Virus record (IMG/VR): IMGVR_UViG_3300022871_000092
Coordinates: 1-26,688 of that record
DNA from: a virus
DNA length: 26,688 nt
Reading direction: 5' to 3' (one strand)
Position 1 is the stretch's first letter. Each line of letters begins with the position of its first letter. The notes under the pieces were generated by a model. The model saw nothing but the letters and a program-made list of their open reading frames with translations. It did not search any database and was not told the origin of the DNA. Positions 5,605 to 24,670 of the stretch are shown in pieces. A program made the translations under genes and the position numbers.

Positions 5605-7149
5605 TTAATATAAATAAGCTAATCTTCCACCAACTTCTATACATTCCCAAATAACTGTGCCGTCTGTAATTGTACCACCAACCGCAGTTGGCCACGAATT
5701 AGGTGGAATGTTAGAAATTTGTGGTTCTACTACATCTGATATACCTGCAATTACACATAAATAAGCATATGTATTATTACTAGTTGGAACTACTACATCA
5801 TTTAGAATATAGCCTGTAGATGGTTGCCAGTCTGCAATTGTAGTACCTCCTATTACTCCCCAATCAGAAAATCCTAAACCATCTTGGCTAACGCTGTATC
5901 TGCAAGTCCATGTATTACCACTACCATCCATTACTGTAGTATTAACTACACCAGGTCCAACCGGCCATACTGGCTCAACTGCACCTGTGTCAGCTAAAAC
6001 TAAAGTTGTACATTGATAAATATAAGCTTCATCTACTGGATAATGCCTAATAGCAAAATGCCCTGTAGAAGGGTATCTAAAATCCTGTAATGCCAAAGTT
6101 GTGTCATTTGCTTGCCAAAGTCTATAATTAGAAAATTGGAATGCACCAACTGGTGCTATAATCCAAAATGATAAAGTAGGATAAACATAAGCTCTTACAA
6201 ACTCTCTAAAATAGTCAAATGTATTTGGTAAAGTAAATGCTGATGGGAAAGACCATGTAATGTTAAATGTAAAGTATGCTTCAGGGTCAAGAGTTAACCA
6301 AGTAATAGCATTATCAATTGTTGGACCACCGATAATATCTGTCCATGCTGGCTCTACTGCTCCTGATTGTCCTCCAACAGTACACTCAAATATATAATCC
6401 CTGCCTTGAGTGTTGTGGTCTGGATTATAAGGAGGATTGGGGCCTGTTGGTGGACCTATGTTTGTTGTTTGATCGGATGGGTCAAACCTAGTTGGTGAGT
6501 TTGCAATAACGTGTTGTTTAGCTGTATAAACTTTATTTGCTTGCCAATATTCCCACTTTGGGGCTTTACCAACATTTAACCAAGTAATACCACCATCAAC
6601 TACAGTATCTCCTAAAAATTCTGGCCATAATGGAGTGGGTAGTCCTGCTGCACCTGTAACTGTTATTGCTTGATAAAGATATTCTATTGCAGGAGTAGAA
6701 ACTGGACTATCCCCAACTACCGTATCACCAAGTGCATATGCCCAACCAGCCACCCAATTAGGATTAGTAGGAATATTATTATTTATTGAGTGTCCTCTCC
6801 AAATATCAAACCACTCTGAGATCTGTGCATTACCGCCAAGTAATCTGCAAACTAGAATTAAGCCTTCTTTATGTCCCTTAAGCAAAGTAATTGCACTTAA
6901 AAAATAACCTAGTCTTGCAGATGTAGTATCTGGTAAGTCTAATATCTTAATTAAATCAGCAAATCCAAACTCTTTAAGAGTTTCTTGTGCTGCCTTACCT
7001 TGTTGATTAGTAAAGTCTTTATACTTATTTAGAATATCTCTAAATTCATATTCATTGTCTGCAATTACTTTATCTATTGCATCACATAACTCTACATAAA
7101 GGTCCTGTTCAAAAATTCCCTTGGGTAAATATGAACTTGAAGTTAACAT
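5605..7149 (-). CDS. Baseplate tail protein I-like protein carrying four surface modules
   Basis: 514 residues. The N-terminal 120 residues ('YLPKGIFEQDLYVELCDAID', 'ILDLPDTTSARLGYFL', 'LVCRLLGG') look like the P2 gpI / tail protein I class that links wedge to tail fibres, and it directly follows the gp6/J-like gene as in P2-like tails. The core resumes near 287-343 ('TFNITWSF', 'REFVRAYVYPTLSFWII'). Four aromatic/Gly modules are inserted or appended at about 132-191, 200-286, 345-417 and 440-503, roughly tripling the usual size. The modules probably face outward. The N-terminal assignment is by pattern and order rather than by a decisive motif. Confidence 0.7.
   Translation of the reverse strand: MLTSSSYLPKGIFEQDLYVELCDAIDKVIADNEYEFRDILNKYKDFTNQQGKAAQETLKEFGFADLIKILDLPDTTSARLGYFLSAITLLKGHKEGLILVCRLLGGNAQISEWFDIWRGHSINNNIPTNPNWVAGWAYALGDTVVGDSPVSTPAIEYLYQAITVTGAAGLPTPLWPEFLGDTVVDGGITWLNVGKAPKWEYWQANKVYTAKQHVIANSPTRFDPSDQTTNIGPPTGPNPPYNPDHNTQGRDYIFECTVGGQSGAVEPAWTDIIGGPTIDNAITWLTLDPEAYFTFNITWSFPSAFTLPNTFDYFREFVRAYVYPTLSFWIIAPVGAFQFSNYRLWQANDTTLALQDFRYPSTGHFAIRHYPVDEAYIYQCTTLVLADTGAVEPVWPVGPGVVNTTVMDGSGNTWTCRYSVSQDGLGFSDWGVIGGTTIADWQPSTGYILNDVVVPTSNNTYAYLCVIAGISDVVEPQISNIPPNSWPTAVGGTITDGTVIWECIEVGGRLAYLY
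5641..5832 (-). repeat. Surface module copy in tail protein I (residues ~440-503)
   Basis: 'WQPSTGYILNDVVVPTSNN', 'YAYLCVIAG', 'VVEP', 'GGTITDGTVIWEC': a near-canonical copy at the C-terminus. Confidence 0.7.
5899..6117 (-). repeat. Surface module copy in tail protein I (residues ~345-417)
   Basis: 'WQANDTTLALQDFRYP' opens the module; 'YIYQCTTLVLADTGAVEPVW' and 'MDGSGNTWTC' follow. The GD.V strand is degenerate here. Confidence 0.65.
6292..6552 (-). repeat. Surface module copy in tail protein I (residues ~200-286)
   Basis: Begins 'YWQANKVYTAKQHVI', has a long Pro/Asn-rich insertion, then 'YIFECTVGGQSGAVEPAW' and a closing 'PTIDNAITW'. The longest copy. Confidence 0.7.
6577..6756 (-). repeat. 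Surface module copy in tail protein I (residues ~132-191)
   Basis: Contains 'GWAYALGDTVV', a tyrosine-rich centre ('YLYQAI'), 'LWPEFLGDTVVDGGITW'. Same order of landmarks as the other eight copies in the window. Confidence 0.7.
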
Positions 7150-7161
7150 TAAATCAATCTC

Positions 7162-9546
7162 CTATATAGTTTGTGTGATGGTTATCTGATTAACTATAAT
7201 CATATATTCATCCCAAGCTGTTTTAGTTAAAATGCTGTAGTCTGATGTTGACCCTGTTGTTGTATTATTTAGCTGCTGCCTACAACGCCAATATACAGTG
7301 CCATCTAATGTGTCTGTGGCTACTGTAGGAATAGGGTTATCATCAATATTTTCCTGAGATATAAGAGTCATCCAAGGGTTACCACCTGCAGGTTCTGCAG
7401 CTCCTGTGGTTCCTGCCTGAACACATTCATAAATATACTCCCCATCAAGAGCTGGGGACGCAGCTACTGGAGTAACAAAATCTCCTCTTCTATAAGCTGT
7501 AAGAGCTTGCCAATTTGGTGCATCAATTGTTATTACACACTTTTTAATATACTCTATATAATTATAAACTAAATCTTCTATCTGCCTTTCTACATCAAAA
7601 ATGTCTATTGAAAGTTCTAATAGTAAATTATAAGGCTCTAAGATACCACCTGTACCATCAATATCGTTAACTACAGGATAAGACCCTGGGAGCTGCATAT
7701 ACACGTCATAATTTAAAGTCATAACTACCTGCGTTGGGTCTGATATAACTGGATCAGGGACGCCAAGGGCTTTGCTAGGACTTAAACTTGTTATAAATGA
7801 TTGTTTTTCTATTGAGTTGAATACTTGATTAACTCCAAGAGAAGAGTCATTACGTACATATGTCATTTCAACAACAGCGGGAGTAACATCTCTATAATTA
7901 GTATCAGACATTCTGGAATCTAGCCCTTTAAATAATTTCATAAAATCATCTCTAGCACGTACTAGAGCTTGTGATTCATAGTAAAGAGGAGCATTTACTT
8001 TTATTGAGTTTAATGTTTCTTGCTCTAAATATATATTATCTCTAACATCTGCTGTTATATCTGAATCATTAGTATACCACGCACAATTTAAAGATGTAAG
8101 CCAGTTAAAAAGTCCTCCTGTATCTCCTATTAAATTTCCTTCTACTGGAGCAGGCCAGCCTGGCTCTGCGGGAGAAACTCCACCAGGAGCTTGACAAGCA
8201 TAAAAATAACCATCCTGCGTAGTAGGAACTACTACATCACCTACAACATATGTAAACCCTGCCTCATATTGACAGTCAAAAGAAATAGGGGCTAATGTTG
8301 TTGTATCATAATCCATTAAATTATAACAAGCCCAAGTAACTTGATTGGCTCCTGGGTTATCTATTACCGTTGTAGCAACACTGACTGGACCAGCTGGCCA
8401 CACTGGCTCAGTTAGTGCGTCTGTAAGACCAAAACCAGCAATAGCTATACATTTATAATAATAGCCGTTTAAGTTGGCTGCAGTTGGTATTATCAAATCT
8501 CCTACCGCTATAGCTGCACCGGCACTCCAAGCTGCAGGAGTAGGAACTGAAACATCTGCTGTTAAGCCCCCTATTGTAATATTCCAATAAGGTTCTCCAA
8601 CTACGTTAGAAGCACCATCAAAATAACTATTAAAAAAATATTCTTGAGGTCTAGAAGCTAATAAGGTTGGGGATACATAATCTGTTTCGTCATATGTAAC
8701 ACCAGATGCCCAAAAAGTAGTGCCATAATAAACAGAACCTATAATAGTTCCATAAGAACTAATATCTATATCACTAATTAAAAATGTAAGGTCGTATGCC
8801 TCTATATACTCTAATCTTAGTATATCACCAGGGCTATAATAAAATGTATCAGCTGAGTTATTATTAAGATACATTACATCAACTGCATCTAATGTATTTG
8901 TTATTACTACATACTCATTGTTCAATAAATCAACTATATGTTCTGATGTAGTTAAAGGGGTTGGGGTTGTATTACTAACAAAAGTAGTTGGTTCACCAGA
9001 CGTTGCATATACACCCTTTGTTAATTGAATATCTTCTGTTACATTGGGATTAGAAAACCTAAACAATTGTAGTTCTGAACTAGGTACTACTATATCTTCA
9101 TATAGTAAATTACCTATAACAACTGGAATTATTGTGGGTATCCCTACATTTAATGTTACATTGTCTATTGTATAAACATCTGCATCTTTACAAGTGCCAA
9201 TTAAAGTAAACTTAGATAAAGTAACTGGGGCTAGTATTGATGGCATTACTGTTAAAGTGAGATGTGAGTTCTTACCTCTATCACAAGAATAACCACTAGC
9301 CTCTGCCCTGGCTACAGCAGAACTACGGATTTCCATATAGGGTAAAAATGTCTCTCTTCTACCAACAACAACTTTATGCTGTAACCAAGTGCCAAGACCA
9401 GCCATAAGCTCTATAAGAGTTTCACCTGCTGAAGAAGTATAAAAATCCCTCCAGGTTAAATATTCTGGCTTAGACTGTACATATGCTTTTACGTCAGCTA
9501 TCCATTGTTGAAAAGAAACTGACTGGGGATCTACTATCCATGACAT
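7162..9546 (-). CDS. Baseplate wedge protein, T4 gp6 / baseplate J-like, with four surface modules
   Basis: 794 residues. 'WRDFYTSSAGETLIELMAG' at 32-50 and 'GRRETFLPYM' at 62-71 are typical of gp6/J-like wedge proteins, which form the ring that ties the wedges around the hub. 'ARAEASGY' at 80-86 is the usual continuation. The core continues around 496-670 ('RDNIYLEQETLNSIKVNAP', 'ALVRARDDFMKLF', 'YRDVTPAVVEMTYVR'). Four aromatic/Gly modules interrupt it: about 278-335, 340-407, 425-488 and 679-757. Removing them leaves about 500 residues, near the size of ordinary J-like proteins. It follows the gp25-like gene and precedes tail protein I, the canonical order. Confidence 0.85.
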   Translation of the reverse strand: MSWIVDPQSVSFQQWIADVKAYVQSKPEYLTWRDFYTSSAGETLIELMAGLGTWLQHKVVVGRRETFLPYMEIRSSAVARAEASGYSCDRGKNSHLTLTVMPSILAPVTLSKFTLIGTCKDADVYTIDNVTLNVGIPTIIPVVIGNLLYEDIVVPSSELQLFRFSNPNVTEDIQLTKGVYATSGEPTTFVSNTTPTPLTTSEHIVDLLNNEYVVITNTLDAVDVMYLNNNSADTFYYSPGDILRLEYIEAYDLTFLISDIDISSYGTIIGSVYYGTTFWASGVTYDETDYVSPTLLASRPQEYFFNSYFDGASNVVGEPYWNITIGGLTADVSVPTPAAWSAGAAIAVGDLIIPTAANLNGYYYKCIAIAGFGLTDALTEPVWPAGPVSVATTVIDNPGANQVTWACYNLMDYDTTTLAPISFDCQYEAGFTYVVGDVVVPTTQDGYFYACQAPGGVSPAEPGWPAPVEGNLIGDTGGLFNWLTSLNCAWYTNDSDITADVRDNIYLEQETLNSIKVNAPLYYESQALVRARDDFMKLFKGLDSRMSDTNYRDVTPAVVEMTYVRNDSSLGVNQVFNSIEKQSFITSLSPSKALGVPDPVISDPTQVVMTLNYDVYMQLPGSYPVVNDIDGTGGILEPYNLLLELSIDIFDVERQIEDLVYNYIEYIKKCVITIDAPNWQALTAYRRGDFVTPVAASPALDGEYIYECVQAGTTGAAEPAGGNPWMTLISQENIDDNPIPTVATDTLDGTVYWRCRQQLNNTTTGSTSDYSILTKTAWDEYMIIVNQITITQTI
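7276..7512 (-). repeat. Surface module copy in gp6/J-like protein (residues ~679-757)
   Basis: 'WQALTAYRRGDFVTPVA', 'YIYECVQAGTTGAAEP', 'DTLDGTVYWRC'. Close to the C-terminus, with an extra insertion before the last strand. Confidence 0.7.
8083..8274 (-). repeat. Surface module copy in gp6/J-like protein (residues ~425-488)
   Basis: 'YEAGFTYVVGDVVVPTTQDG', 'YFYACQAPGGVSPAEPGWP', 'GLFNWLTSL'. Near-canonical. Confidence 0.7.
8326..8529 (-). repeat. Surface module copy in gp6/J-like protein (residues ~340-407)
   Basis: 'WSAGAAIAVGDLIIPTAAN', 'YYYKCIAIAGFG', 'TEPVWPAGP', 'QVTWAC'. It follows the previous copy almost directly. Confidence 0.7.
8542..8715 (-). repeat. Surface module copy in gp6/J-like protein (residues ~278-335)
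   Basis: 'FWASGVTYDETDYVSPTLL', 'EYFFNSYFDGASNVVGEPYW', 'IGGLTADV'. The most divergent copy; the central Cys is absent. Confidence 0.55.
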
Positions 9547-9559
9547 AAATTAATTCTCC

Positions 9560-9946
9560 TTAGTATAAAATAGACGTTTGATATTGAAATAACTCTACAG
9601 ATGATTTAACAGAAAAGGTTAAGTAAACATCAATTGTATGATTATCTGGGTCTACATCTATTTCTGAATTTGGCAAATCAACTTGAATTCTAGGGTCATT
9701 ATATTCTACTTGTTCTGATACTTCTTTTAATAGAAGTAAACACGTATCTGTATCCACTATATCAAATAGATACTCCTCAAGATCTATACCATAATTAGGT
9801 CTAAATAATCTCTCACCTTTCATGGTATTAACCATGTTATCAATTGACTGATATATAGAATCCATATCATATATTAATGAGGATTTTTTAGGACTATATG
9901 GATTTAGATCCGAATATAGTGCATTTTTTTTAACTGACTTAATCAT
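9560..9946 (-). CDS. Baseplate wedge protein, T4 gp25-like
   Basis: 128 residues, the size of the gp25/GPW family. 'GERLFRPNYGIDLEEYLFD' at about 44-62 is the core motif (a variant of the family's E-R...P..G..L...LF). 'VEYNDPRIQVDL' follows where the family has the ...EPRI... strand, and the C-terminus 'IDVYLTFSV' is the last sheet. gp25 joins the wedge to the first sheath ring and helps start sheath polymerisation. AAGGA lies upstream of its ATG. The ATG lies inside the last codons of the small lipoprotein gene. gp6/J-like follows, as expected. Confidence 0.9.
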   Translation of the reverse strand: MIKSVKKNALYSDLNPYSPKKSSLIYDMDSIYQSIDNMVNTMKGERLFRPNYGIDLEEYLFDIVDTDTCLLLLKEVSEQVEYNDPRIQVDLPNSEIDVDPDNHTIDVYLTFSVKSSVELFQYQTSILY

Positions 9947-10076
9947 AATTTATTCCTTCATTTAAAGCTCTATTTACTTGTATATGATACTTAATTTGAT
10001 ATTCTAATCTCTTTTGTACTGTTGTAGCACAAGCTGGTAAGGCTAATATGCTTAATATTAATAGTATCTTAATCAT
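9939..10076 (-). CDS. Tiny lipoprotein (45 residues), exclusion-type or o-spanin candidate
   Basis: Starts 'MIKILLILSILALPACATT': a short basic head, a hydrophobic stretch and a lipobox ending L-P-A-C16, so it should be cleaved and lipidated at C16. That leaves a mature part of 30 residues containing 'VQKRLEYQIKYHIQVNRALN'. It overlaps the start of gp25 by eight bases and starts four bases after the stop of the 128-residue gene, so it is packed into the operon. The same mature pattern recurs in the frame at 1289-1465. A mature chain this short is small for an o-spanin. Small phage lipoproteins encoded beside receptor-binding genes (for example T5 Llp) can block the receptor against superinfection, so that role is also possible. 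Confidence 0.75.
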   Translation of the reverse strand: MIKILLILSILALPACATTVQKRLEYQIKYHIQVNRALNEGINYD

Positions 10077-10079
10077 ACT

Positions 10080-10466
10080 TTATGTTCCGCTTACCTCGTC
10101 CCTTATTTTATCCTTGTCATCTAGCCATTTTTTAACTTCTGGAAAAAGGTCTTTAATCTCATTGGCTAGTATCTCAATAACCTTTTCTTTCTGCTTATCT
10201 GTTTCGGCTATATATCTAGCCTTTCTGCACTCTGCTAGATATTCGCTATGTCTAGGAAGGGTTTTAAGATAGCCCACTTCGTATTTCTTAACTACTCCTC
10301 CCTCAACATAAAACCTATTCTGTTGTGCATCGTTAAAAATTGCCTCATTTTTATATTCTTCTGGATAGTCTTCTACTTCCAATTCCTTCCATGCGCTTTG
10401 ATAGACAAAAGCCATGATATTATTATCCTCATCTACGGCAACACGTTTTTTGTTTTCTAGCTCCAT
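10080..10466 (-). CDS. Unknown 128-residue protein in the fibre block
   Basis: Soluble, acidic to neutral protein with a charged helical C-terminal third ('DKQKEKVIEILANEIKDL', 'EVKKWLDDKDKIRDEV') and an N-terminal half rich in Y, E and N. A strong AGGAGGT is six bases before the ATG. Both lie within the last codons of the GIY-YIG endonuclease gene, which overlaps it by ten bases. Placement after fibre genes would suit a fibre chaperone, but no chaperone motif is evident. Function unknown. Confidence 0.6.
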   Translation of the reverse strand: MELENKKRVAVDEDNNIMAFVYQSAWKELEVEDYPEEYKNEAIFNDAQQNRFYVEGGVVKKYEVGYLKTLPRHSEYLAECRKARYIAETDKQKEKVIEILANEIKDLFPEVKKWLDDKDKIRDEVSGT

Positions 10467-11110
10467 GTTGTCACCTCCTTTATCCTTTTATTATATTTTC
10501 TCCCTTTTAATGCTCTACTAACTTTGTCTTTGTGTTCTTGTGTGTGTCTATATCCTAATGAATATTTATTACCGATTAAACTATCAGATATTTTTTTCTT
10601 TTGTTCATCGGATAATGTTTTGCCTACATGAGCCTTACTCATATTAGTTTTAGCCACCAATGTATGTTTATAACCTTTATTTTTTCCTTTGTTAGCTAAT
10701 GCAACTCTTTTTTGCCTTTCCTCTGGTAGTTTTCTACCCTTTAATGCTTCTTTAATTTTCTTTCTGTGTTCTGCTGAAATAACACAGCCTTTTTTTGCAT
10801 CTCTCATTTTTTGTATAGACTGTTCTGTATGTTTTAATCCTTTACGACCACCCTTGCCACCTTTACATAAGTTATAACCGATACTCTTTATATCACTCTT
10901 AAAACAAGCTATCCAATAAATCTCTCTTTCGTTAAGGTGTTCTTGTGATATGCAATATTCTAGTATGTCTTTTCTGAAATTACTTCTGCCATATTTTTTA
11001 AAAGCATTATCAATCGCTATGCCACTACCCATATAATTAGGATTGTTCATACTGTCTTGTCCTATATATATTTTACCTGTTATTAGGTTTGTGGTCTTAT
11101 AAATTATCAT
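10457..11110 (-). CDS. Free-standing GIY-YIG homing endonuclease with NUMOD3 repeats
   Basis: 217 residues. 'MIIYKTTNLITGKIYIGQDS' carries the GIY...YIG pair (I3-Y4 and Y15-I-G17). 'YMGSG', 'KKYGRSNFRKDIL', 'LNEREIYWI' (the conserved Glu) and 'YNLCKGGKGG' complete the domain in the first 90 residues. The rest is a row of NUMOD3-type DNA-binding repeats ('SAEHRKKIKEALKGRK', 'SDEQKKKISDSLIGNK', 'TQEHKDKVSRALKGRK'). Such selfish genes cut an allele lacking them and spread by recombination. No intron is apparent. Its 3' end supplies the ribosome site and start of the next gene, so it inserted without disrupting expression. Confidence 0.9.
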   Translation of the reverse strand: MIIYKTTNLITGKIYIGQDSMNNPNYMGSGIAIDNAFKKYGRSNFRKDILEYCISQEHLNEREIYWIACFKSDIKSIGYNLCKGGKGGRKGLKHTEQSIQKMRDAKKGCVISAEHRKKIKEALKGRKLPEERQKRVALANKGKNKGYKHTLVAKTNMSKAHVGKTLSDEQKKKISDSLIGNKYSLGYRHTQEHKDKVSRALKGRKYNKRIKEVTTWS

Positions 11111-11129
11111 TTTGTTTTATAAATCCTCC

Positions 11130-11996
11130 CTATACATCACTCGGTATATCGTAGCCTGTAGGCTTAGCATCTAACTCTACATCACCACTTACTCTTATGC
11201 TTGTTACATTAGCGTTATAAGTACAACGAACAACAGAAGAATTAGGAGTTGCATAGTTATACGTTATAAATCCTCCAACAGAGCCTACTGAAATAGCTTG
11301 ATAATTATTAGCTACATTCTTAAAAGTGACGCCTGTTACAGTTACACTAAAATCAGTATTTATACCTGCAGCGCCTACAATATTAAAATTTAATTTCCAT
11401 GCTCCATTACTAGTCTTATAAAAAATACCAACTGCTCTAATTGTTGCCCATCCAGCAGGTCCACTACAAGTCAAATCTAACAATGGACTCACATACTCAT
11501 ATTGCCACTTTGCTCTACTTGGTGCGAAAGTTTCTATTTCTTGGATTTTAAGATAACTACCAATAGCATAGATGGTATGTAGTGAATTAATAGAATAAAG
11601 TCTTATCTCAATTACTGTATCTATTGATGGAGTAATATAATGTTCTATGTTCTCCTGTGTTCCGTGATTTGTAATATATGTTGAAATTAAAGCTGTTCCC
11701 GTCATTCCAATAAGTGAAGCATTGGTTACATCATATATTCTGTACTGTGCATAACCAGTATTAGCAGAACAAAATATATATAATGCTGACGATATACAAT
11801 ATGTTTTGTTTGCTTTAAGTGTAACCCTATAAGTAGCAGGGTCAAAAGCCATATTATTTAACACAACAGTATTAAACTTAATTGGGTCTGTTATTGCAAT
11901 GTCAGTAGTTTGGTTACCTGATAATTGGAAAAGCCCAAACTCCTTTGGTGTCCAGTTTACTAAATCTCTTGAAAAACTACTACTAATTCCAGCCAT
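11130..11996 (-). CDS. Tail fibre protein with a C1q/jelly-roll-like domain
   Basis: 288 residues. The segment at about 23-155 ('KFNTVVLNNMAFDPATYRVT', 'NKTYCISSALYIF', 'ITPSIDTVIEIRLYS') matches a domain at about 18-150 of the upstream fibre ('DPATYRVTLKKNRTY', 'ITPTVDTVVDLRLTT') and has the strand pattern of C1q/TNF-like jelly rolls, which often form trimeric receptor-binding heads. The second half ('PAGWATIRAVGIFYKTSNGA', 'VGSVGGFITYNYATP') is another beta domain. It ends 'TGYDIPSDV'. AGGAG lies nine bases before the ATG. A near copy of its last codons remains just upstream at 12008-12034. Confidence 0.7.
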   Translation of the reverse strand: MAGISSSFSRDLVNWTPKEFGLFQLSGNQTTDIAITDPIKFNTVVLNNMAFDPATYRVTLKANKTYCISSALYIFCSANTGYAQYRIYDVTNASLIGMTGTALISTYITNHGTQENIEHYITPSIDTVIEIRLYSINSLHTIYAIGSYLKIQEIETFAPSRAKWQYEYVSPLLDLTCSGPAGWATIRAVGIFYKTSNGAWKLNFNIVGAAGINTDFSVTVTGVTFKNVANNYQAISVGSVGGFITYNYATPNSSVVRCTYNANVTSIRVSGDVELDAKPTGYDIPSDV

Positions 11997-12007
11997 ATTT
12001 TATACTC

Positions 12008-12037
12008 CTAAACATCACTTGGCAAATCATAGCTCCC
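12008..12037 (-). pseudogene. Leftover C-terminal codons of a fibre gene ('GSYDLPSDV' stop)
   Basis: Read in the frame ending at the TAG at 12008-12010, the end of the 109-residue gene plus the gap after it encode G-S-Y-D-L-P-S-D-V-stop. This matches the last residues of the downstream fibre (T-G-Y-D-I-P-S-D-V-stop at 11130). It looks like the scar of a recombination event, or a frameshifted old C-terminus. Confidence 0.55.
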
Positions 12038-12356
12038 CTCTCTCTTTTAACCTTTCTATAGCCATATCTCTCATCTCTGCTTGTATTAAAGCCTCATCAG
12101 CTTGTAATTTTAATTCTTCCTCTGTTAATTCTTTTACTTCTTCAATAACTTTCTCTACTACTGGAATATTTTTAACCTCATATTCATTCCCATTCCATTG
12201 AGCATATTGCTTTGTATTATCAAACTCTGGTGGTACAACTTCTACACAACCAGCAGGAAGTAAAAACTTACCATGTTCCAATGGGCTTTCCTGTGAATTT
12301 TCAGGTCCTAAATAAACTCCGTTACTATCTAACTGATATACAATTTTAGTTCTCAT
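12027..12356 (-). CDS. Tail fibre assembly chaperone-like protein
   Basis: 109 residues. 'YQLDSNGVYLGPENSQESPL' and 'FLLPAGCVEVVPPEFDNTKQ', followed by 'QWNGNEYEV', match the beta-rich N-terminal half of many small phage proteins encoded after fibre genes and annotated as fibre assembly proteins. The C-terminal half is a charged helix ('EKVIEEVKELTEEELKLQAD'), as in those proteins. It lies directly after a collar-type fibre gene. GAGG precedes the ATG. The last codons overlap, in another frame, a remnant of a fibre C-terminus. The role in folding or trimerising the adjacent fibre is inferred from the family. Confidence 0.6.
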   Translation of the reverse strand: MRTKIVYQLDSNGVYLGPENSQESPLEHGKFLLPAGCVEVVPPEFDNTKQYAQWNGNEYEVKNIPVVEKVIEEVKELTEEELKLQADEALIQAEMRDMAIERLKERGEL

Positions 12357-12364
12357 CTTTACCT

Positions 12365-13387
12365 CTAATATTTAATAATATAATAAACACCATAAGCCTT
12401 ACCTGTTGTTTCAAGACCTGTTCTTGGTGCACCATTTGTACCATCATTGGTCATTGTGCTTACGGTTGTTGAAATACTAGCATAACCAGTGTTCGTGTTT
12501 TTAGATGTAGCACTACCACCAAGTGTCCCTATTTCATATAACCCACCAAGCTGGATTTCCCATTGACCTATATTAGAATAAGTTATAGCATGAATGTGAC
12601 CACTATCTGAGCTTGCAGCACTATGATAATGCCCTTGCCCTTTATCATCGACTTTAGCTGCTAGTGCCACGACGGTATTGCTTGTGAAAGCTGTCGGTGT
12701 TCCTACTCCTCTTAATGTTGCAGACCTTAAATCTGGTATATTAAAAGTTGTAGCACCATCACCAACACCCCAAGTCGTACTTAACTTGGCAAACAAAGAC
12801 GAATAAACTGTCCTTAATATAGCACTTCCATCACAATTCAAATATCCGTCGGGGACAACAGCACCCGCATAAGACTGCACTACTCCAACCTGAACACTAA
12901 TGTCTGGTCTTTGTATTACAGGGCTTACTATGTTTATCTGCTGAATTTCCCAGTGTGAATAAGTAGTATAAATAGCATTTATATTTGTACTAGTTGTTAA
13001 CCTTAAATCTACTACTGTATCAACTGTTGGAGTAATAATACAAAAAGCTGGTGTTGTAGAAGTATTATTGGCAACATAAGTAACGGGTAATTCATAACCT
13101 AGTGTTCCAATATAAGCACCAGCAGTTACATCATAAAATTGAACAGTGCTACCACCTGCATTATTAGTATAATTAACCAATATATGTGAAATTAATTTGT
13201 AAGTTCTATTCTTTTTTAATGTTACTCTATAAGTTGCAGGATCAAGAGTAATATTACCAACAGACAAAGTGTCAAACTTAAGGGGATTACCAACATTAAA
13301 ATTTGCTACTTGAGTAGCCGACATTATAATATAAGCATACTCATTATCACTAAATTGGAAGTTATTTTTACTACTTGTTATCTTCAT
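12365..13387 (-). CDS. Tail fibre with C1q-like domain fused to a phage tail-collar domain
   Basis: 340 residues from the ATG at 13387. That start overlaps the stop of the upstream gene (TGATG) and is preferred over an in-frame ATG 24 bases upstream that would lie inside it. Residues 18-150 form the jelly-roll-like domain shared with the 288-residue fibre. Residues about 168-225 are a classic tail-collar domain: 'GAVVPDGYLNCDGSAI', 'YSSLFAKLSTTWGVGDGATT' and 'FNIPDLRSATLRGVG'. After this come HxH pairs H253/H255 ('GHYH') and H264/H266 ('GHIH'), typical of metal-threaded fibre tips. It is probably a distal receptor-binding fibre. Confidence 0.85.
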   Translation of the reverse strand: MKITSSKNNFQFSDNEYAYIIMSATQVANFNVGNPLKFDTLSVGNITLDPATYRVTLKKNRTYKLISHILVNYTNNAGGSTVQFYDVTAGAYIGTLGYELPVTYVANNTSTTPAFCIITPTVDTVVDLRLTTSTNINAIYTTYSHWEIQQINIVSPVIQRPDISVQVGVVQSYAGAVVPDGYLNCDGSAILRTVYSSLFAKLSTTWGVGDGATTFNIPDLRSATLRGVGTPTAFTSNTVVALAAKVDDKGQGHYHSAASSDSGHIHAITYSNIGQWEIQLGGLYEIGTLGGSATSKNTNTGYASISTTVSTMTNDGTNGAPRTGLETTGKAYGVYYIIKY

Positions 13388-14712
13388 CAAGCCACCGTAT
13401 AAACAATACAATTAACATTTGCCATATTGCTCCTAAAACTTACCACTTTGTCATCTTCCATATTCATATCCATTTCTAAAAATAATGTCTGGTTTACATC
13501 TAGAGTAAAGTACTTCCTTTCCTCATCAAGGATACTACCAATTATATTATCATCAATATAAGCAATCTGTACCTCTGCAACATCACCACCATTTCTATTA
13601 CACACTAACATATTAACCTTACAAGCCCTAGTTGTTAACCAAGCTACATAATCTGTATCTACAAGATTACCCGCACCATCTATATCTATTGCATCAACTC
13701 TTTTCATATTAACATCAGCAGCCAATACCTCACCACATAAGTCAAAGTTGACTAACAGTTGAGAGCTAGTTATTATAATAGTATCAGTAGCAATCATTCC
13801 ATCTAATTCTATAATCTTTGTTTCGTAAGGTAAAAAGTAATCATCAAATAATACATAATCCTCATCAGCCAAAGCACCAATAGCACCATCTACATGTGCA
13901 ACTTTAACCTTAGTAGTCAAACCACCATTGGTATTAGTTATATATAATTTAGGACTTCTAATATAAGTTAAAGCTGGTACTGTATATAAAGTCTCATCAG
14001 TATCAACTACTGCAATAGCAGCAACCCCTAGTCTTTGATAGTCACCTGCAACTGTACCTGCTCCTACAAATGGGTCAATTGCCGTACCAGCACCAGTAAT
14101 AGTAACACCATCACCTTGTTGATCACCAGTATTAGTTCCACTTGTATTACCAATTACAATTGCATCAGCATCTGTTACATATCTTTTATCTACACTATCT
14201 GCTATGTCAGCTGTTGTGGCATCTGCACCCACTGTCACAAGACCTTTAGTATCATATGTTATCTTAGTTTTAGTACCAGCTACTATTGCTGCATTTTCGT
14301 CAACTTTAGCATCAAGAGCATTTTGTAAATCTAATTGATTAGCAAGAGTCCCTGTTATGTTACCCCATACTGCTGAAACATCAATGTTTTGAATTCTACT
14401 CCAACCTACAGCTGACTTTACAGCCCAATCACCAACAACCCAAGTAGTTATACCACCTAAGTTAGTAGCACCTGCAACGTCTACGATCCAAGCATATCCA
14501 GTTATTAATGTACCAGTTATATCTGGAACGTTAGTTGTAGCATTCCAATTACCTTGTATAATAATACTATTTAGCTCTGTACCAATGTGAGTTACAATAG
14601 CATCAGCCAATGGTGTAGAAAATACCAAATCAACTGGTAATGCACCAGCTGGTATTACAGAAGCATACTTAGTTTGCATTAATAATGCTAATACGTCTTT
14701 ATCTAGTGCCAT
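13387..14712 (-). CDS. Large tail fibre/structural protein with tandem C-terminal repeats
   Basis: 441 residues from the ATG at 14712, which follows the stop of the spike gene and has AGGAG upstream. A TTG nine bases earlier is a weaker choice. 'WNATTNVPDITG', 'GYAWIVDVAGATNLGGIT' and 'VGDWAVKSAVGWSRI' (about 56-107) form a module common in phage fibres. 'KTKITYDTKGLVTVGADATT' and 'ADAIVIGNTSGTNTGDQQGD' (147-201) form another very widespread fibre segment. The C-terminal half is two tandem copies of a beta domain (about 230-328 and 335-440). It is the first gene of the fibre block, right after the spike, and so is likely the fibre part nearest the baseplate. Confidence 0.75.
   Translation of the reverse strand: MALDKDVLALLMQTKYASVIPAGALPVDLVFSTPLADAIVTHIGTELNSIIIQGNWNATTNVPDITGTLITGYAWIVDVAGATNLGGITTWVVGDWAVKSAVGWSRIQNIDVSAVWGNITGTLANQLDLQNALDAKVDENAAIVAGTKTKITYDTKGLVTVGADATTADIADSVDKRYVTDADAIVIGNTSGTNTGDQQGDGVTITGAGTAIDPFVGAGTVAGDYQRLGVAAIAVVDTDETLYTVPALTYIRSPKLYITNTNGGLTTKVKVAHVDGAIGALADEDYVLFDDYFLPYETKIIELDGMIATDTIIITSSQLLVNFDLCGEVLAADVNMKRVDAIDIDGAGNLVDTDYVAWLTTRACKVNMLVCNRNGGDVAEVQIAYIDDNIIGSILDEERKYFTLDVNQTLFLEMDMNMEDDKVVSFRSNMANVNCIVYTVA
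13393..13710 (-). repeat. C-terminal beta repeat B of the 441-residue fibre
   Basis: Residues ~335-440: 'MLVCNRNGGDVAEVQIAYID', 'LDEERKYFTLDVNQTLFLE', 'MANVNCIVYTV'. Same N-x-N-G-G, I/V-A-x-I/V-D and D-E order as repeat A. Confidence 0.65.
13729..14025 (-). repeat. C-terminal beta repeat A of the 441-residue fibre
   Basis: Residues ~230-328: 'LYITNTNGGLTTKVKVAHVD', 'ALADEDYVLFDDYFLPYETK', 'LLVNFDLCGEV'. Aligns with repeat B. Confidence 0.65.
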
Positions 14713-14713
14713 A

Positions 14714-16578: not shown

Positions 16579-16580
16579 TA

Positions 16581-16931
16581 TTATCCCCTAGCAACTCTAT
16601 CGGCATTTAGATTAAAAAATAACAATTCAAGATCTATAATAGATGGATAATTTAACATTGTATTAGCAGGTATAACTTCTGGGTCTTGTAAATTGTTAAA
16701 TTCCATTATAATCCACCAAAACTGTGTTTCTCCATATATTTCATTAGATATTAAATCTATACGATTTTCTAATGCTCCAATTTGTAGTTGACCTTGTACT
16801 GGTAATAACCTTAAAGCAGACAAAAATTTAGCAGTAAGAGGATCAAATTCTTGCTCTTGGTAATCAAGAAACTTGGCAAAAGCATACCTATCTTCTCTTT
16901 CTATATCTAAATTAATAAAAAATTGAGACAT
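16581..16931 (-). CDS. Baseplate wedge protein, T4 gp53-like
   Basis: 116 residues. 'ENRIDLISNEIYGETQFWWI' followed by 'IMEFNNLQDPEVIPANTML' and 'YPSIIDLELL' is the characteristic core of the gp53-type family (R-x-D-x-I...Y...WW.I...N...DP...I..G..L..P). gp53 bridges adjacent wedges to start baseplate closure. The N-terminal 40 residues are charged and variable. It sits between the tube-junction-like gene and the hub gene with gaps of only 2-5 bases, in keeping with a baseplate operon. Confidence 0.75.
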   Translation of the reverse strand: MSQFFINLDIEREDRYAFAKFLDYQEQEFDPLTAKFLSALRLLPVQGQLQIGALENRIDLISNEIYGETQFWWIIMEFNNLQDPEVIPANTMLNYPSIIDLELLFFNLNADRVARG

Positions 16932-16936
16932 ATCTA

Positions 16937-17722: not shown

Positions 17723-17725
17723 TTA

Positions 17726-19123: not shown

Positions 19124-19227
19124 TATTCTTGCACTCCATTGATAATCTCTTCTACACACTCACCAAGTTTCAGTACCTCAGTATAATCCATTTTACCTAT
19201 ATCAGATATTGGCACTATATTTTTCAT
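19123..19227 (-). CDS. 34-residue ORF overlapping the gp26-like gene and coupled to the tape measure
   Basis: The frame begins 'MKNIVPISDIGKMDYTEVLK' and ends '..IINGVQE' with a TAA that overlaps the tape-measure ATG (TAATG), the coupling seen at other gene junctions in this operon. It overlaps the end of the gp26-like gene by 26 bases in the +1 frame, and that frame stays open for a further 81 bases upstream. It could be an independent tiny protein with a weak start or a +1 frameshift extension of the gp26-like protein. A CCC-TTT sits in the overlap zone near 19273-19278. Confidence 0.45.
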   Translation of the reverse strand: MKNIVPISDIGKMDYTEVLKLGECVEEIINGVQE

Positions 19228-20101
19228 TGATAGTACGAATTCCAGTTGAATTAGATTCAGAGGGTTCACGAAAGGGGGAGATAAAAATATCTCCATCACC
19301 TCCTCCATCTATTGATACTATATTAGATGCTTTGCATTCTGCACAAATAAACTTTTTAGATGATATACTATGATATAGATCTTTTATTATTTCTTCAAAT
19401 ACTACACCATCTTCAAGTTTAGCATACTTAAACTTATTGTAAGTATCTATAAACTTTTCAGAAGCACCCTTATCACTTAAATCCATTATTGTTTGTATTG
19501 AAGCTATTGCAAATTCGTCATTATATAAATTCTGATCAATTAACTCCATAGTCATCTCTACAGTTAATGGCATAAACTCATATTTACCAAAACTAAATTC
19601 CTTTATATATGGAACCTTTACGTCATTTAATTCATCAAAATCAAAATTACTTATTTCTTCTACTATGTTATTCTCTTTATCACAGCTAGAACAGTAATAA
19701 GTAATACTTAATTTCTTAGTTTCAAGAGTTGATATGTTTCTTAATATTCCAAGATACATAAAATCTGATACTGTAAGTTTATACTTATCAAAATTAGTCT
19801 CTATTCCAGTCAAAACAAAGTCAAATCTATCCTTAGATTCCATTTTAGACTGGCTAAATAGTTTAACTTCTTCAAATGTATATGGATAATACTTAATACT
19901 AGCATCACTTGGGTAAAATAAACCTTTAGACGGAAGATCCTCTACTTTTATATTTATAGAAGGTAAATAGTCTGATTTTACAGAAGTAATGTTATTAGCT
20001 TTCTTTTTATTGTGTTTAAACTTGAAATCTGTACTATCTATTTTTAATACTTTTAAAAATAACTTAAAGATAAATTTAGGCATCCATCTAGGTTTTATCA
20101 T
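19202..20101 (-). CDS. T4 gp26-like baseplate hub assembly protein with zinc ribbon
   Basis: 299 residues. 'VEDLPSKGLFYPSDASIKYY' at about 53-72 and 'PYTFEEVKLF' are typical of the T4 gp26-type baseplate family (LPS.G..Y....I...P....E...L). Two CxxC pairs, C137/C140 and C253/C256, would form a zinc ribbon. 'FGKYEFMPLTVEMTMEL' in the middle matches the strand-helix core. The N-terminal 40 residues are basic. ATG overlaps the previous stop (ATGA). Position between tube-like proteins and the tape measure matches hub-assembly or tape-measure chaperone proteins. Confident in the family resemblance, less so in the exact role. Confidence 0.6.
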   Translation of the reverse strand: MIKPRWMPKFIFKLFLKVLKIDSTDFKFKHNKKKANNITSVKSDYLPSINIKVEDLPSKGLFYPSDASIKYYPYTFEEVKLFSQSKMESKDRFDFVLTGIETNFDKYKLTVSDFMYLGILRNISTLETKKLSITYYCSSCDKENNIVEEISNFDFDELNDVKVPYIKEFSFGKYEFMPLTVEMTMELIDQNLYNDEFAIASIQTIMDLSDKGASEKFIDTYNKFKYAKLEDGVVFEEIIKDLYHSISSKKFICAECKASNIVSIDGGGDGDIFISPFREPSESNSTGIRTINEKYSANI

Positions 20102-20874
20102 GTAAATCTCCTCACAACCCCTGCAGTTTTCTTTGTTATAATATCAAATCTTGGCATAGTAAACCCAGCTACTGTCTCTAAAACTTGAACCTTAAGCATT
20201 TTTAAGTCATAAGTATGAAGACCATCATCACTATCACCAACAAATGATAACGTTCCGTCTGGTATAACTACATATCTATTAGTTGTTATACTATTTAACT
20301 GATTATCTAATTTGGATACCACTATAATCTTTGATACTTCACTTATAGTTTTTATACACCTTGATTTATCAGTAATTTCATCTATTCCTTTATCATTTGT
20401 AACAACATTTAAAGATGATCGACCTTTATCTGTTAAACCTGCACCTACTGCTTTTTCTAGAATTGTATTACCTTCTACTTCAGTAAAAGGGTTCATCCAC
20501 GCTTTACACCAGTTAAACATTGAATTATGTATATCATCTACAAAAGTTATGTTAATACCTAAAATCTTACTTCCCTTAGGAACTGGATGATTATAATATG
20601 TACCTGGTGCTTCAAAATGTGTAATACTTGTTTCTTCATCACTAAACTTTGTGATAGGATACCACTCAAAATTACTGCCAGCAGAAGGTATTGCACCTTC
20701 TTTACCAAGGAGTTGGTCAGCTATTCCCTCAAGCTTACCAAGAGCTATATCTCCAACTTTTTGGGTTACAGCTTCAACTAACCCACCAGCTACTTCCTCA
20801 AAAGAAATATCCCAAAGGTATCTTCTACTCCACTCTACACTTCTTATTTGATCTATGTTATTTAACTTTGGCAT
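20098..20874 (-). CDS. Tube-like baseplate/tail-tube terminator protein
   Basis: 258 residues. 'IRSVEWSRRYLWDISFEEV' at the start parallels the 'RWRLDF'/'RWEIDF' start of the two tail-tube proteins upstream, followed by an insertion (about 30-65) and 'HPVPKGSKILGINITFVDDI' then 'HTYDLKMLKVQVLET', the strand order expected of a tube-fold protein. It may form a specialised ring at the tube-baseplate junction (gp54-like). No decisive motif beyond these; the fold assignment is inference. GAGGAAA lies before the ATG. The gap upstream holds an endonuclease remnant. Confidence 0.5.
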   Translation of the reverse strand: MPKLNNIDQIRSVEWSRRYLWDISFEEVAGGLVEAVTQKVGDIALGKLEGIADQLLGKEGAIPSAGSNFEWYPITKFSDEETSITHFEAPGTYYNHPVPKGSKILGINITFVDDIHNSMFNWCKAWMNPFTEVEGNTILEKAVGAGLTDKGRSSLNVVTNDKGIDEITDKSRCIKTISEVSKIIVVSKLDNQLNSITTNRYVVIPDGTLSFVGDSDDGLHTYDLKMLKVQVLETVAGFTMPRFDIITKKTAGVVRRFT

Positions 20875-20891
20875 ATATATATTTCCTCTTA

Positions 20892-20963
20892 TTATCCTGC
20901 TAAATTTTCTATATGTAGATCTTTAAATATTCTTATTAAATTTGTAGTTTTATATATTACCAT
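20892..20963 (-). pseudogene. Remnant of a GIY-YIG homing endonuclease (23 codons)
   Basis: The frame reads 'MVIYKTTNLIRIFKDLHIEN' and stops. Its first ten residues match the intact endonuclease at 10457-11110 ('MIIYKTTNLITGKIYIG'), and the DNA matches closely over the first ~32 bases. After that the YIG half is lost. It occupies almost the whole gap between a tail-tube gene and the next structural gene, the usual place for a free-standing homing gene. It is probably the trace of a lost insertion. Confidence 0.6.
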
Positions 20964-20964
20964 T

Positions 20965-21561
20965 TTAACTCCATTTTAACCATTCTGGTACAGACCCAGT
21001 AAAATATTCTGTTACTCCACTAATAGTACTTATAGCACCAACCATATCAACTTTTGTTTCTGTAAAATAATCAAACCCAAAGGTTACATTAGCTTTAAAG
21101 ATTTCATCACTATTATCTGCAGCTCCTCTACTATAACCCTTCAATATACAACCCCAACAAGTAAATAATCTAATTGGTTCATTTTTATTATTTAATAATG
21201 TTAAATTAACTATTGAAGATGTAAGACTTTTAGCATTACCTTTACCACTTTTTAAATTCATTATGGCGTCTTGCCAAGCACTAAAGAAGTCAAATACTAA
21301 ACCATCTGTAGTTTCAATAAACACTAAATTCATATCATTAGGTTTTACTGAACCATTTCTCTGTATTGACCACTGTTTTATTTTTACTTCTTGGGATGAT
21401 ATATTATAAGTAGGGACATCCGAGCTTTCACATCTAATATTGAGTTCAGTAGGTAAAATAATCCCAATACCTGCAATAGGCTGAGTGACAAAATCTAATC
21501 TCCATCTGAATCTCTGGGCTATCTGCCCAATGTTTCTGACATCTTGAATTGTTGGTCTCAT
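20965..21561 (-). CDS. Tail tube protein paralogue 2 (T4 gp19-like)
   Basis: 198 residues. 'RNIGQIAQRFRWRLDF', 'LNIRCESSDVP', 'MNLVFIETTDG', 'FSAWQDAIMNL', 'LTLLNNKNEP' and 'GAADNSDEIFKANVTFGFDY' line up with the neighbouring 175-residue protein and with the gp19-type tube fold. It has an extra C-terminal tail of about 25 residues ('MVGAISTISGVTEYFTGSVP') that the first copy lacks. Because a terminator-like hairpin separates it from the sheath and first tube gene, it is likely made in lower amount. That suits a special ring (tube end or baseplate end) rather than the bulk tube. Confidence 0.75.
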   Translation of the reverse strand: MRPTIQDVRNIGQIAQRFRWRLDFVTQPIAGIGIILPTELNIRCESSDVPTYNISSQEVKIKQWSIQRNGSVKPNDMNLVFIETTDGLVFDFFSAWQDAIMNLKSGKGNAKSLTSSIVNLTLLNNKNEPIRLFTCWGCILKGYSRGAADNSDEIFKANVTFGFDYFTETKVDMVGAISTISGVTEYFTGSVPEWLKWS

Positions 21562-21620
21562 TAATTAATTTTTCTCCAATGTTTAGATTAACACTGAGAT
21601 TTACCCAGAAAAGGCTTAGG

Positions 21621-21663
21621 ATAAAATTATTAGGGTTGAAAGGTTTACTAACAACCCTAATAA
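21621..21663 (-). terminator. Intrinsic terminator after the first tail-tube gene
   Basis: A perfect 12-bp inverted repeat, TTATTAGGGTTG (21627-21638) and CAACCCTAATAA (21652-21663), with a 13-base loop. On the leftward strand the stem is followed by TTTTAT. It lies in the 135-base gap between the two tube genes. The stem is only partly G/C-rich, so termination may be partial. Confidence 0.7.
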
Positions 21664-21696
21664 CAAGATAGGGAGGCAGGGAGGATATTGACTATT

Positions 21697-22224
21697 TTAA
21701 ACTATAGATTCCTCTTTAAACAGATCATAATGTAGAGTAATCTTAGGTTTAACTAAGTTATTTTCATTATCTATTGCACCAGGAGTATAGTCCTCAAGAA
21801 GAGCACCAATTAAGGTAAATTTCTTTTTAGGATTGTCCTGATTATCAAGTAAATAAAGAGTTATAGTAGCTTCTACTTCATTTTTATTACTCTGTGTTCC
21901 AGAATCCACATTGTAACTAACTTCTCTCCATTGGACTAGAAAATTAGCCATTTCGTGGTTAATAGTTTCTATAAATGTTAAATCTATAGATCCATTATAT
22001 TTTGTAATACCCTGATAAGCTACTTCGTGTCCTCTAATATTATTACTTACTAAATTAGGTGTAGCTTTAGGTATTGTTGCACTTTCACACCTTAGATTAA
22101 TTCCTGCGGAATCAATACCAGGTGAGGTTACGGCAGTAGGAAATGCTGTAAAGTCTATTTCCCATCTATGACTTAGAGCTAATTGCCCTAATGATCTTAA
22201 TTGACTAACTGATGGTCTTCCCAT
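21697..22224 (-). CDS. Major tail tube protein (T4 gp19-like)
   Basis: 175 residues, close to the 160-170 usual for gp19-type tubes. 'SQLRSLGQLALSHRWEIDF' at the start, 'INLRCESATIP', 'VAYQGITKYNGSIDLTFIET', 'FLVQWREVSYN', 'ITLYLLDNQDNPKKKFTL' and 'PGAIDNENNLVKPKITLHYD' form the expected order of the tube beta sandwich. It follows the sheath gene directly, the standard order, and precedes a terminator, consistent with high expression. Hexameric rings of it would form the inner tube. GAGGAG lies upstream of the ATG. Confidence 0.85.
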   Translation of the reverse strand: MGRPSVSQLRSLGQLALSHRWEIDFTAFPTAVTSPGIDSAGINLRCESATIPKATPNLVSNNIRGHEVAYQGITKYNGSIDLTFIETINHEMANFLVQWREVSYNVDSGTQSNKNEVEATITLYLLDNQDNPKKKFTLIGALLEDYTPGAIDNENNLVKPKITLHYDLFKEESIV

Positions 22225-22264
22225 TTTTTATTCTCCTCTATTTATTATTTTCTTCATATCTAAA

Positions 22265-22290
22265 GAGGTAGCTATTAGTATAACTACCTC
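22265..22290 (-). other. Small intercistronic hairpin between sheath and tube genes
   Basis: GAGGTAG (22265-22271) and CTACCTC (22284-22290), 7 bp with a 12-base loop, in the 82-base gap between the genes. On the leftward strand it is followed by TTTAG, too short a T run for a good terminator. It may be a weak attenuator or protect mRNA ends. Confidence 0.4.
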
Positions 22291-22306
22291 CGTCATTAAT
22301 TATTCC

Positions 22307-24670
22307 TTAGAATGCACCGAATGTTGCACCAGTTGATGTTATGATAGTCTTAAACCTGATTATCTCAGCAGACTTAGTAGGCTGTATGTACAACCAAACT
22401 TCCATTTCATTGGCATCTATAACTGCAGGTGTGTTATTGCTTTCATCACAAACTGTCTGAAAAGCATATACACCACGTCTTGCTTTAATATTTTCCATAT
22501 ACTGATCTATAATTATCTTGATCTGATTTCTTGTGATAACGTCATTGAATTCAAATATAAAATCATCAAGAAGTGAAGCTATTGCAGGTTGTATATAAAC
22601 TAACAATAGTCTTACATTCAATCTGTCAAGAGATGTTGGTCTAGCTGATAGAGTCTTCTGGCCCCAAACAAGTATACCTTTACCAGGTGCAAACCTAATA
22701 GGATTGATCTGATTATCATAAAGTTCATCCATTTCACCTTTAGACCATCTACGTTTAACATCAAGAACATTTAACAGCCCTCTTCTAAAACCAGCAGCAG
22801 GGTACCATAGTTCATAATTAGCAAATGTTCTTGAAATTACTGAACCAGCATAACCATCTGGGGATACATAAAGTTCTCTATCATTAAATTTATCATAGAT
22901 AGAAACGTGAGGGCTATACATAGCACTCCAAGAACTGTTTAGGTTCAATATATTCTTTCTATAATTTACAATTGAAGTAACATAAGTATTAGCAGTTGCT
23001 TCGTCTACATATCTTGAGGATAAAAGACCTACACAATCTTCTCTAGACTGGCATAAAGCATCTATAGCTCTTTGATAAGATTTAGTAGTCCAACCACCAT
23101 CTAAAACTAATGTTATGGTTGAATTGTTTGTATTATCAAATAAGTCTAGAGCAGTTATCATATTAGCATCAGTAACTGTAGAACCATCATCTCCTTTAGC
23201 AAAATCAAGAATTATGGTTTGCTCTTTAGGATATAGTAATCCAGAACCAGCATCAATTGCTCTTATATAGCTTGATTCTAATAGTTTATCTTCTATATAG
23301 ATATTATTACCATAACCATCTTTAGTTCCATCTATCATAGAACAAGTATGTGACTCTTGTAGTATATCTTTATAATATACTGCAATTATAAATGCCTCAG
23401 GTTCTTTAACAGTATCTGGGGAACTACGATAGTTGTATATCTCTATAGATATATCATTATTCCATAGTCCAGGATTAACACCATAAAGTAAAAATGCATC
23501 CTCTTCATCAGCAGCATCAGTACCCTCTACTGTTATAACAGGCTCTATTGTCCAGTCCGAACTACCATTTGTTGGGGCAGTACTTACTGTTCCAGTAACC
23601 GCATTAGTAACTGTAATAGTATTGGAAGCAGGAGTTGAACTAAATATACCTGTTAAGTTATCTATCATCTTTTCCATATAAGTACAAATTACTGTACCTG
23701 TTGCTGCCTCTGGAATTACTACTGGTATTGCTGTCTTACCAAATAGCTCAGGATCAGTAGCCATGTCCGTAATAGCTACAACTGTCCAATTAATACCAGT
23801 ATCTACAATTACATCACCAATAGTAGGAGTAGCAGTCCATGCAGGTTCTGCTGCACTTGTTACTAATATACCACCACCAAGAGAACATTTAAGAACCAAT
23901 CCAGCCCAACCAGCTACATAAGAAGCTATACTTGGAACACAGTAGTCTCCTACTTGAATTAAAGCAGCTTTCTGCCATGCAGAAGCCACACCAAACCAGC
24001 AATAATAATCTGTTGTCGGTGAGCTAAATTCTACAAAAGTTTCGTTTGTTCTTGCAGGTTCTGTTATAAGTTGTACTGTACCAGTTGAAAGTGCAGTACC
24101 ATAAGCAGTAGCTGTGAATATAGAACCTACTTCATTTGCATCAGCACCAATAAGTGTAAAATCAGTAGTACCAACTAAAGTTATTATATATCTACTACCA
24201 ATAACCATTGAATTAGCTGCTAGAGTTGTGAGTATATCTACACCAGAAATATCACCATCGTCATCTACTGTAAATCTTGTTATTTCTGCTGCTGCAGTTA
24301 CCGATGTACCAGAAAATGTATAAGCATCAGGGTCAGTCATACCAGCTGCTATTGCTGCATTGGATGCTACTGCTGGGGTAGTTCTTATAATTGTACCACC
24401 ATACAGAGAGGTATTAGCTGCTCTAGCTACATATAGTCTATTTGCAGATGTTAAAAACTGCAATGCAGACCAATACGCATTGTCATATCCTATTTCTATT
24501 TTTCCATCTGCTGTTAGTCTGTTTAGTAAATCACTTTCACTTGTTATTAGTTCAAGTTCATCTACACTGCCTCTAACTGCAGGAATTACTATCCCAGCTG
24601 TAACACCAGGAAATCCTGGTACTCTCTGTGATAAATCAATTGTACTTTTTATTACTTGGGCACTAGCCAT
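22307..24670 (-). CDS. Tail sheath protein (T4 gp18-like) with two inserted modules
   Basis: 787 residues. The start 'LSQRVPGFPGVTAGIVIP' and the end are clear sheath signatures: 'NYELWYPAAGFRRGLLNVLD', 'QINPIRFAPGKGILVWGQKT', 'PTSLDRLNVRLLLVYIQPAI', then 'FQTVCDESNNTPAVIDANEM' and 'LYIQPTKSAEIIRFKTIITS'. The C-terminal domain forms the inner wall that contacts the tube. Two modules are inserted in the N-terminal half: a 'GTTDFTLIGADANEVGS' type domain (about 152-201) and one copy of the aromatic/Gly surface module (about 231-298). These should project from the outer sheath surface. It is the contractile element that drives the tube into the host. Confidence 0.95.
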   Translation of the reverse strand: MASAQVIKSTIDLSQRVPGFPGVTAGIVIPAVRGSVDELELITSESDLLNRLTADGKIEIGYDNAYWSALQFLTSANRLYVARAANTSLYGGTIIRTTPAVASNAAIAAGMTDPDAYTFSGTSVTAAAEITRFTVDDDGDISGVDILTTLAANSMVIGSRYIITLVGTTDFTLIGADANEVGSIFTATAYGTALSTGTVQLITEPARTNETFVEFSSPTTDYYCWFGVASAWQKAALIQVGDYCVPSIASYVAGWAGLVLKCSLGGGILVTSAAEPAWTATPTIGDVIVDTGINWTVVAITDMATDPELFGKTAIPVVIPEAATGTVICTYMEKMIDNLTGIFSSTPASNTITVTNAVTGTVSTAPTNGSSDWTIEPVITVEGTDAADEEDAFLLYGVNPGLWNNDISIEIYNYRSSPDTVKEPEAFIIAVYYKDILQESHTCSMIDGTKDGYGNNIYIEDKLLESSYIRAIDAGSGLLYPKEQTIILDFAKGDDGSTVTDANMITALDLFDNTNNSTITLVLDGGWTTKSYQRAIDALCQSREDCVGLLSSRYVDEATANTYVTSIVNYRKNILNLNSSWSAMYSPHVSIYDKFNDRELYVSPDGYAGSVISRTFANYELWYPAAGFRRGLLNVLDVKRRWSKGEMDELYDNQINPIRFAPGKGILVWGQKTLSARPTSLDRLNVRLLLVYIQPAIASLLDDFIFEFNDVITRNQIKIIIDQYMENIKARRGVYAFQTVCDESNNTPAVIDANEMEVWLYIQPTKSAEIIRFKTIITSTGATFGAF
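23777..23980 (-). repeat. Surface module copy in the tail sheath (residues ~231-298)
   Basis: 'AWQKAALIQVGDYCVPS', 'LVLKCSLGGGILVTSAAEPAW', 'DVIVDTGINW': same landmarks as the eight baseplate copies. Confidence 0.7.
24068..24217 (-). repeat. 'GTTDFT.IGA' type inserted domain in the tail sheath (residues ~152-201)
   Basis: 'MVIGSRYIITLVGTTDFTLI' followed by 'GADANEVGSIFTAT' and 'GTALSTGTV'. This small beta domain is widely seen in phage structural proteins. It occurs only here in the window. Confidence 0.65.

Follow-up and report, generated by a model that had tools for sequence, protein, structure and literature searches.

The tail genes of an uncultured T4-like myophage raise the question of whether one small domain is used nine times across three of its virion proteins, whether it sits there as a guest or as part of each fold, and what it might do. 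The phage comes from a virus record, and the whole 26.7-kb stretch of DNA that was analyzed is referred to here as the window. On its minus strand lie genes for a sheath protein, two tube-like proteins, a gp53-like protein, a spike (Phage_base_V), a gp25-like protein, a gp6/J-like wedge and a P2-I-like protein, in the same order as in Rhizobium phage RHph_Y65. The tail sheath protein (22307-24670, minus strand, 787 aa) was assigned by Pfam and PHROG: both sheath domains score above their cut-offs (PF04984, 1e-10, 42.2 bits with a cut-off of 31.4; PF17482, 1.9e-10, 41.1 bits with a cut-off of 26.9), and phrog_23 matches at 7e-67. The baseplate wedge protein (7162-9546, minus strand, 794 aa) is gp6/J-like, based on its alignment to the wedges of the related locus L088 and of RHph_Y65 and on phrog_219, which matches the whole protein at 6.2e-9 and the module-free N terminus alone at 1.2e-6. 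The third protein (5605-7149, minus strand, 514 aa) is syntenic with gp303 of RHph_Y65 and aligns with a 218-aa protein from L088 and with L087; its own core gives no match to PF09684, and it is named P2-I-like because the module-free L088 relative matches Tail_P2_I (PF09684) at 1.4e-8 and 35.1 bits, above cut-off. A gp25-like wedge protein (9560-9946, minus strand; PF04965, 8e-11) carries no module and is given for context.

Other features of the window, all on the minus strand, lie close to these genes. An ORF among the tail genes (10457-11110) combines a NUMOD3 motif (1.6e-10) with a GIY-YIG-like start and is a probable homing endonuclease. Two fibre-like proteins (11130-11996 and 12365-13411) share a paralogous N-terminal part (FDPATYRVTLK.N.TY), and the latter has a Phage Tail Collar domain in addition. 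A 67-aa ORF (4658-4861) resembles the ORF at 3878-4654 in its N terminus (TAPDGW...GLTIG) and the end of the ORF at 4866-5585 in its C terminus (DNSGLLNNL..VRE), and looks like a recombination remnant.

The recurring segment is about 60 residues long and has the layout W-x5-Y-x2-GD-x-V ... Y-x-C ... EP-x-WP ... DG-x3-W. All nine segments are in frame and on the minus strand, one in the sheath, four in the wedge and four in the I-like protein, and were delimited with profile HMMs. Module 1 (23774-23989) is the sheath copy and has a counterpart in the equivalent loop of the L026 sheath. The wedge holds module 2 (8542-8724), the weakest of the wedge copies and the one lacking the last W, module 3 (8320-8541), module 4 (8092-8280) and module 5 (7276-7524), which was also placed by alignment. 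The I-like protein holds module 6 (6568-6768), module 7 (6286-6558), which has a long proline-rich loop insertion, module 8 (5896-6129) and module 9 (5635-5841), which is nearest to the family consensus. A six-frame profile scan of the window detected no tenth copy and no module in the tube, gp25 or spike ORFs.

The initial annotation had proposed a single module type in nine copies, and profile statistics bear this out. When each copy was scored with a profile built from the other eight, it reached 24.0 to 46.2 bits, whereas none of the 5000 shuffles of each exceeded 16.1, and pairwise BLASTP between copies gave E values down to 6e-9. An external profile, made from 97 modules that all came from viral contigs other than the window, scored the nine copies at 23.4 to 67.4 bits (module 9 highest) and 2000 shuffles of each at 14.2 bits or less. 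The weakest and most diverged copy is that of the sheath (23.4 bits), which went unreported at E 0.01 when whole ORFs were scanned with the external profile under default settings. Identity between copies is mostly 23-45%, and they are therefore not recent duplicates or the result of tandem expansion. The nine copies do not form one clade in a module tree (7 changes, shuffled mean 8.8), a tree that at 61 aa is too weak to tell how they were gained. Across 112 modules the W, E, P, G and D positions are near-invariant, and the most conserved aromatics are W4, Y27, W42 and W57.

By alignment with relatives, the modules are insertions, and this is our clearest result: each of the three host proteins has relatives that lack them, in line with the annotation's view that they interrupt otherwise normal tail proteins. 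The mid-protein site of the wedge holds three modules in the window and is empty in L088, which belongs to the L019-record phage, while the C-terminal site, with one module in the window, carries modules in the L088 wedge too. The I-like protein of the L019-record phage is module-free at 218 aa, and two sites are shared between the window protein, with 2+2 modules, and L087 (record G004), with 1+2. In four other loci the wedge gene, which bears modules too, is directly followed by a separate one-module frame of 111-120 codons (L217, 1429-1770; L218, 1426-1758; L220, 1423-1758; L222, 1429-1788), which may belong to the wedge as a split-off or downstream segment.

In the sheath, the insertion site is a loop spanning residues 119-401 (282 aa; 23468-24316, minus strand), whose limits come from comparing loop lengths across an alignment of 40 sheaths. 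The loop measures 14 aa in several module-free relatives, 77 in L026 and 282 in the window, and the 63 extra residues of L026 amount to exactly one consensus-like module. Inserts unrelated to the module, of 14 to about 360 aa, occupy the loops of other relatives; across loci L008-L066 the loop is a general domain-insertion hotspot with many different guests. The window loop itself contains a second guest segment (VGTTDFTLIGADANEVGSIFTAT; 24071-24208, minus strand), read directly from the sequence and unrelated to the nine modules, which was found in no other fetched locus. Just one of 84 other sheath-like ORFs has the module, which is thus dispensable for sheath function. Taken together, the alignments show the same outer sites in sheath, wedge and I-like protein being reused across phages.

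The annotation had also asked whether the modules project outward. For the sheath, the position of the insertion and homology to T4 gp18 support this: the family profile aligns gp18 end to end (1.6e-73), pairing window residue 86 with gp18 residue 86 and window residue 399, approximately, with gp18 residue 227, also approximately. Based on this alignment, the inserted loop falls within residues 83-365 of gp18, described in the cited part of PMC9230969 as a protease-resistant fragment. The same part of that source places additional sheath domains away from the tube and supposes them unnecessary for sheath formation. Such a placement would leave the window module facing outward. The predicted structure of the window sheath has low confidence (mean pLDDT 57; 49-65 in the module and 22-40 in its flanks; 13 alignment rows, with module rows scattered when mixed into the sheath alignment) and does no more than fit a separate domain on linkers.

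The domain on its own is modeled with confidence. AlphaFold2 predicted module 9 (38 rows) as a 70-residue small beta domain with a pLDDT of 93.1. In a Foldseek comparison of this model with the PDB, the best match is the part of the cyanophage Pam1 tailspike that binds the receptor (PDB ID: 7EEA, TM score of 0.63 over 69 columns, 25% identity). Next come mostly the chitin-binding domains found in chitin deacetylases and chitinases (TM scores of 0.34 to 0.48, E 0.12 or worse), along with weak matches to T4 capsid and tail-complex chains (about 40 columns, 2-3 Å, E 0.8 to 3.6). Pam1 thus provides the nearest solved fold, as one copy in a tailspike and not spread over sheath and wedge. We had also considered an Ig-like identity, which was dropped: the Pfam scans gave no Ig family, and no Ig-fold phage domain is among the top PDB matches listed.

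The annotation's guess of carbohydrate binding fared unevenly. On its side is a resemblance to CBM5/12 domains in both sequence and predicted fold: the layout W-x5-Y-x2-G-x2-V ... Y-x-C ... EP is common to the module and to CBM5/12 (PF02839; chitinase A1, PDB ID: 1ED7), and 1ED7 comes out on top when the module profile is searched against the PDB, at an E value of 0.1 that is not significant alone. The best match to CBM_5_12 is that of the L026 module (21.2 bits, 3e-4, short of the 26.2-bit cut-off); in the window, module 5 reaches 17.5 bits (E 0.0042, below cut-off), and the other window modules tested gave no CBM_5_12 match. Module 9 also matches Dit-like_CBM2 (PF21869) below cut-off (8.1e-5). 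Because the Pfam matches are sub-cut-off and the 1ED7 hit is not significant alone, we call the module CBM5/12-like and not a member of that family. Differences from CBM5/12 are a longer second half (WP...DG...W) and the residue before EP. In chitinase A1 this residue is a Trp, which we take to be exposed and ligand-binding, whereas the aligned position 38 of the module is T, S, V or A and is aromatic in 2% of 112 modules.

The annotation had further suggested that the nine copies form a dedicated coating or glycan grip of this virion, a reading that the distribution does not bear out in that form. A DNA pattern for EPxWPx4Gx4DGx3W matches at least 120 viral contigs; its spacing is fixed, and in the window, whose copies are spaced differently, no chance match was expected and none occurred. 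Elsewhere the module occurs in, among others, minor tail protein L, gpJ, major capsid, head closure, nozzle, gp53 and fibre proteins, and predicted viral structures place the same domain in P22 gp10-like, major tail, baseplate wedge and many other phage proteins. Modules are present in 13 of 42 records that surround related sheaths, in the wedge in at least nine, in the I-like protein in two and in the sheath in one; relatives thus have modules in one or two of these three proteins, and the window is the only one of these records seen with modules in all three. No module is present in the complete genomes of RHph_Y65, Vibrio GR11A, phiLo and Peetri. In viral contigs, the full-length wedge and I-like proteins as queries returned no relatives, and alignment-based searches returned eight loci each. 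In named phages, tblastn with individual modules yielded either no hit or three weak ones, the consensus having probably been lost to the low-complexity filter. Overall, the survey describes a promiscuous phage virion domain that is not private to the window phage.

Databases already hold this family under another name. PHROG 20658 ("head decoration", 211 aa) is the same module family, matching the wedge at 1.4e-18 and the I-like protein at 6.7e-20, three stretches in each; outside the window, it matches 64 of 72 scanned proteins with modules. The sheath copy has diverged too far to match PHROG 20658, but it does match the wider module profile. The name and category of this PHROG come from one protein context, whereas the window modules sit in sheath and baseplate proteins.

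With regard to function, we lean, with some reserve, towards glycan adhesion, in which the modules would act as weak binders of host-surface glycans. Inserted in outward-facing loops of the sheath, wedge and P2-I-like proteins, they would leave the cores undisturbed, and each most likely binds, weakly, glycans on the envelope or extracellular matrix of the host. The sheath ORF has a single copy, which agrees with the one module per sheath subunit expected by the annotation; together with four per wedge and four per tail-I subunit, this would provide many low-affinity side contacts and hence avidity. T4-like tails have about 138 sheath, 12 gp6 and 6 tail-I-like subunits, and by analogy a virion would carry roughly 200 modules. 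The side contacts could slow diffusion of the particle and keep it close to the host surface until its true receptor-binding fibres take hold. The wedge Gp119 of Bacillus phage Vp4 offers a direct precedent for such a role: it has CBM folds that are absent from its Deep-Blue homolog, and only Gp119 binds host cells (PMC11406892). Like the window wedge, Gp119 places carbohydrate-binding-type folds in a myophage wedge, but these belong to other families (e.g., CBM16) and the sheath is not involved (PMC11406892). Against a sugar role count the non-aromatic column before EP and the use of a chitin-binding-like fold as cement in the T4 capsid, and the conserved aromatics W4, Y27, W42 and W57 could be purely structural. 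A bolder form of the adhesion reading, which we consider rather improbable, is that the contractile tail itself is adhesive, with glycan-binding modules of sheath, wedge and tail-I proteins holding the particle sideways on polysaccharide before fibre-mediated adsorption and contraction rearranging the array.

A doubtful but credible alternative is that the modules are structural cement or spacers, which would link adjacent subunits and make the extended sheath and baseplate stiffer without binding sugar. The T4 capsid contains a chitin-binding-like insertion domain that bridges subunits (PMC3185693), the head-binding part of CBA120 TSP1 has a chitinase-A1-like subdomain for which no glycan role is known (PMC3966878), and the weak Foldseek matches to T4 chains, the "head decoration" label of PHROG 20658 and the lack of an aromatic residue at the position of the chitinase A1 Trp all fit this alternative. 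The T4 domain is of the same general fold class as the modules and is likewise inserted in a virion protein, but its role is structural, within capsomers, and we found no sequence match between it and the modules (PMC3185693). A specific bridge is not needed, since the sheath, wedge and I-like proteins of close relatives are module-free or bear unrelated inserts at the same sites, and the strong divergence of the copies from one another also argues against cement.

That the modules are near-neutral mobile domains, with insertion-tolerant outward loops filled by recombination with a common phage module pool, seems to us unlikely. The range of guests in the sheath loop, the many unrelated virion proteins that carry modules and the scattering of the window copies on the weak module tree are what such traffic would produce, but the near-invariant W, E, P, G and D positions and the presence of nine intact copies in 27 kb, none of them broken, suggest selection for function. 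Finally, the reading of the segments as integral to each core fold, their likeness a coincidence of composition, has low pairwise identity (mostly 23-45%) in its favor and is scarcely credible, being refuted by module-free relatives of all three proteins, by the independent profile and by the autonomous, confident fold.

Each ingredient is already known on its own: sheaths with extra domains, phage wedges with CBMs, and the shuffling of modules. The sheath domains discussed by Evseev et al. 2022 are likewise additional beta domains away from the tube-facing core, for which adhesion or cementing was proposed (PMC9230969); they are mostly Ig-like, and the cited part of that paper describes no CBM5/12-like module and no sharing with the wedge. 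What is new here is the drawing together of the module family, the repeated use of defined outer sites in three tail proteins, and sheath copies in two phages. With the profile, a very common virion module can be given a name of its own; its only labels in databases are head decoration or unknown. The sheath and wedge are usually viewed as machinery, with adhesion assigned to the fibres. The varying module numbers in related phages provide natural pairs with and without the module, and these make the long-discussed role of extra sheath and baseplate domains directly testable.
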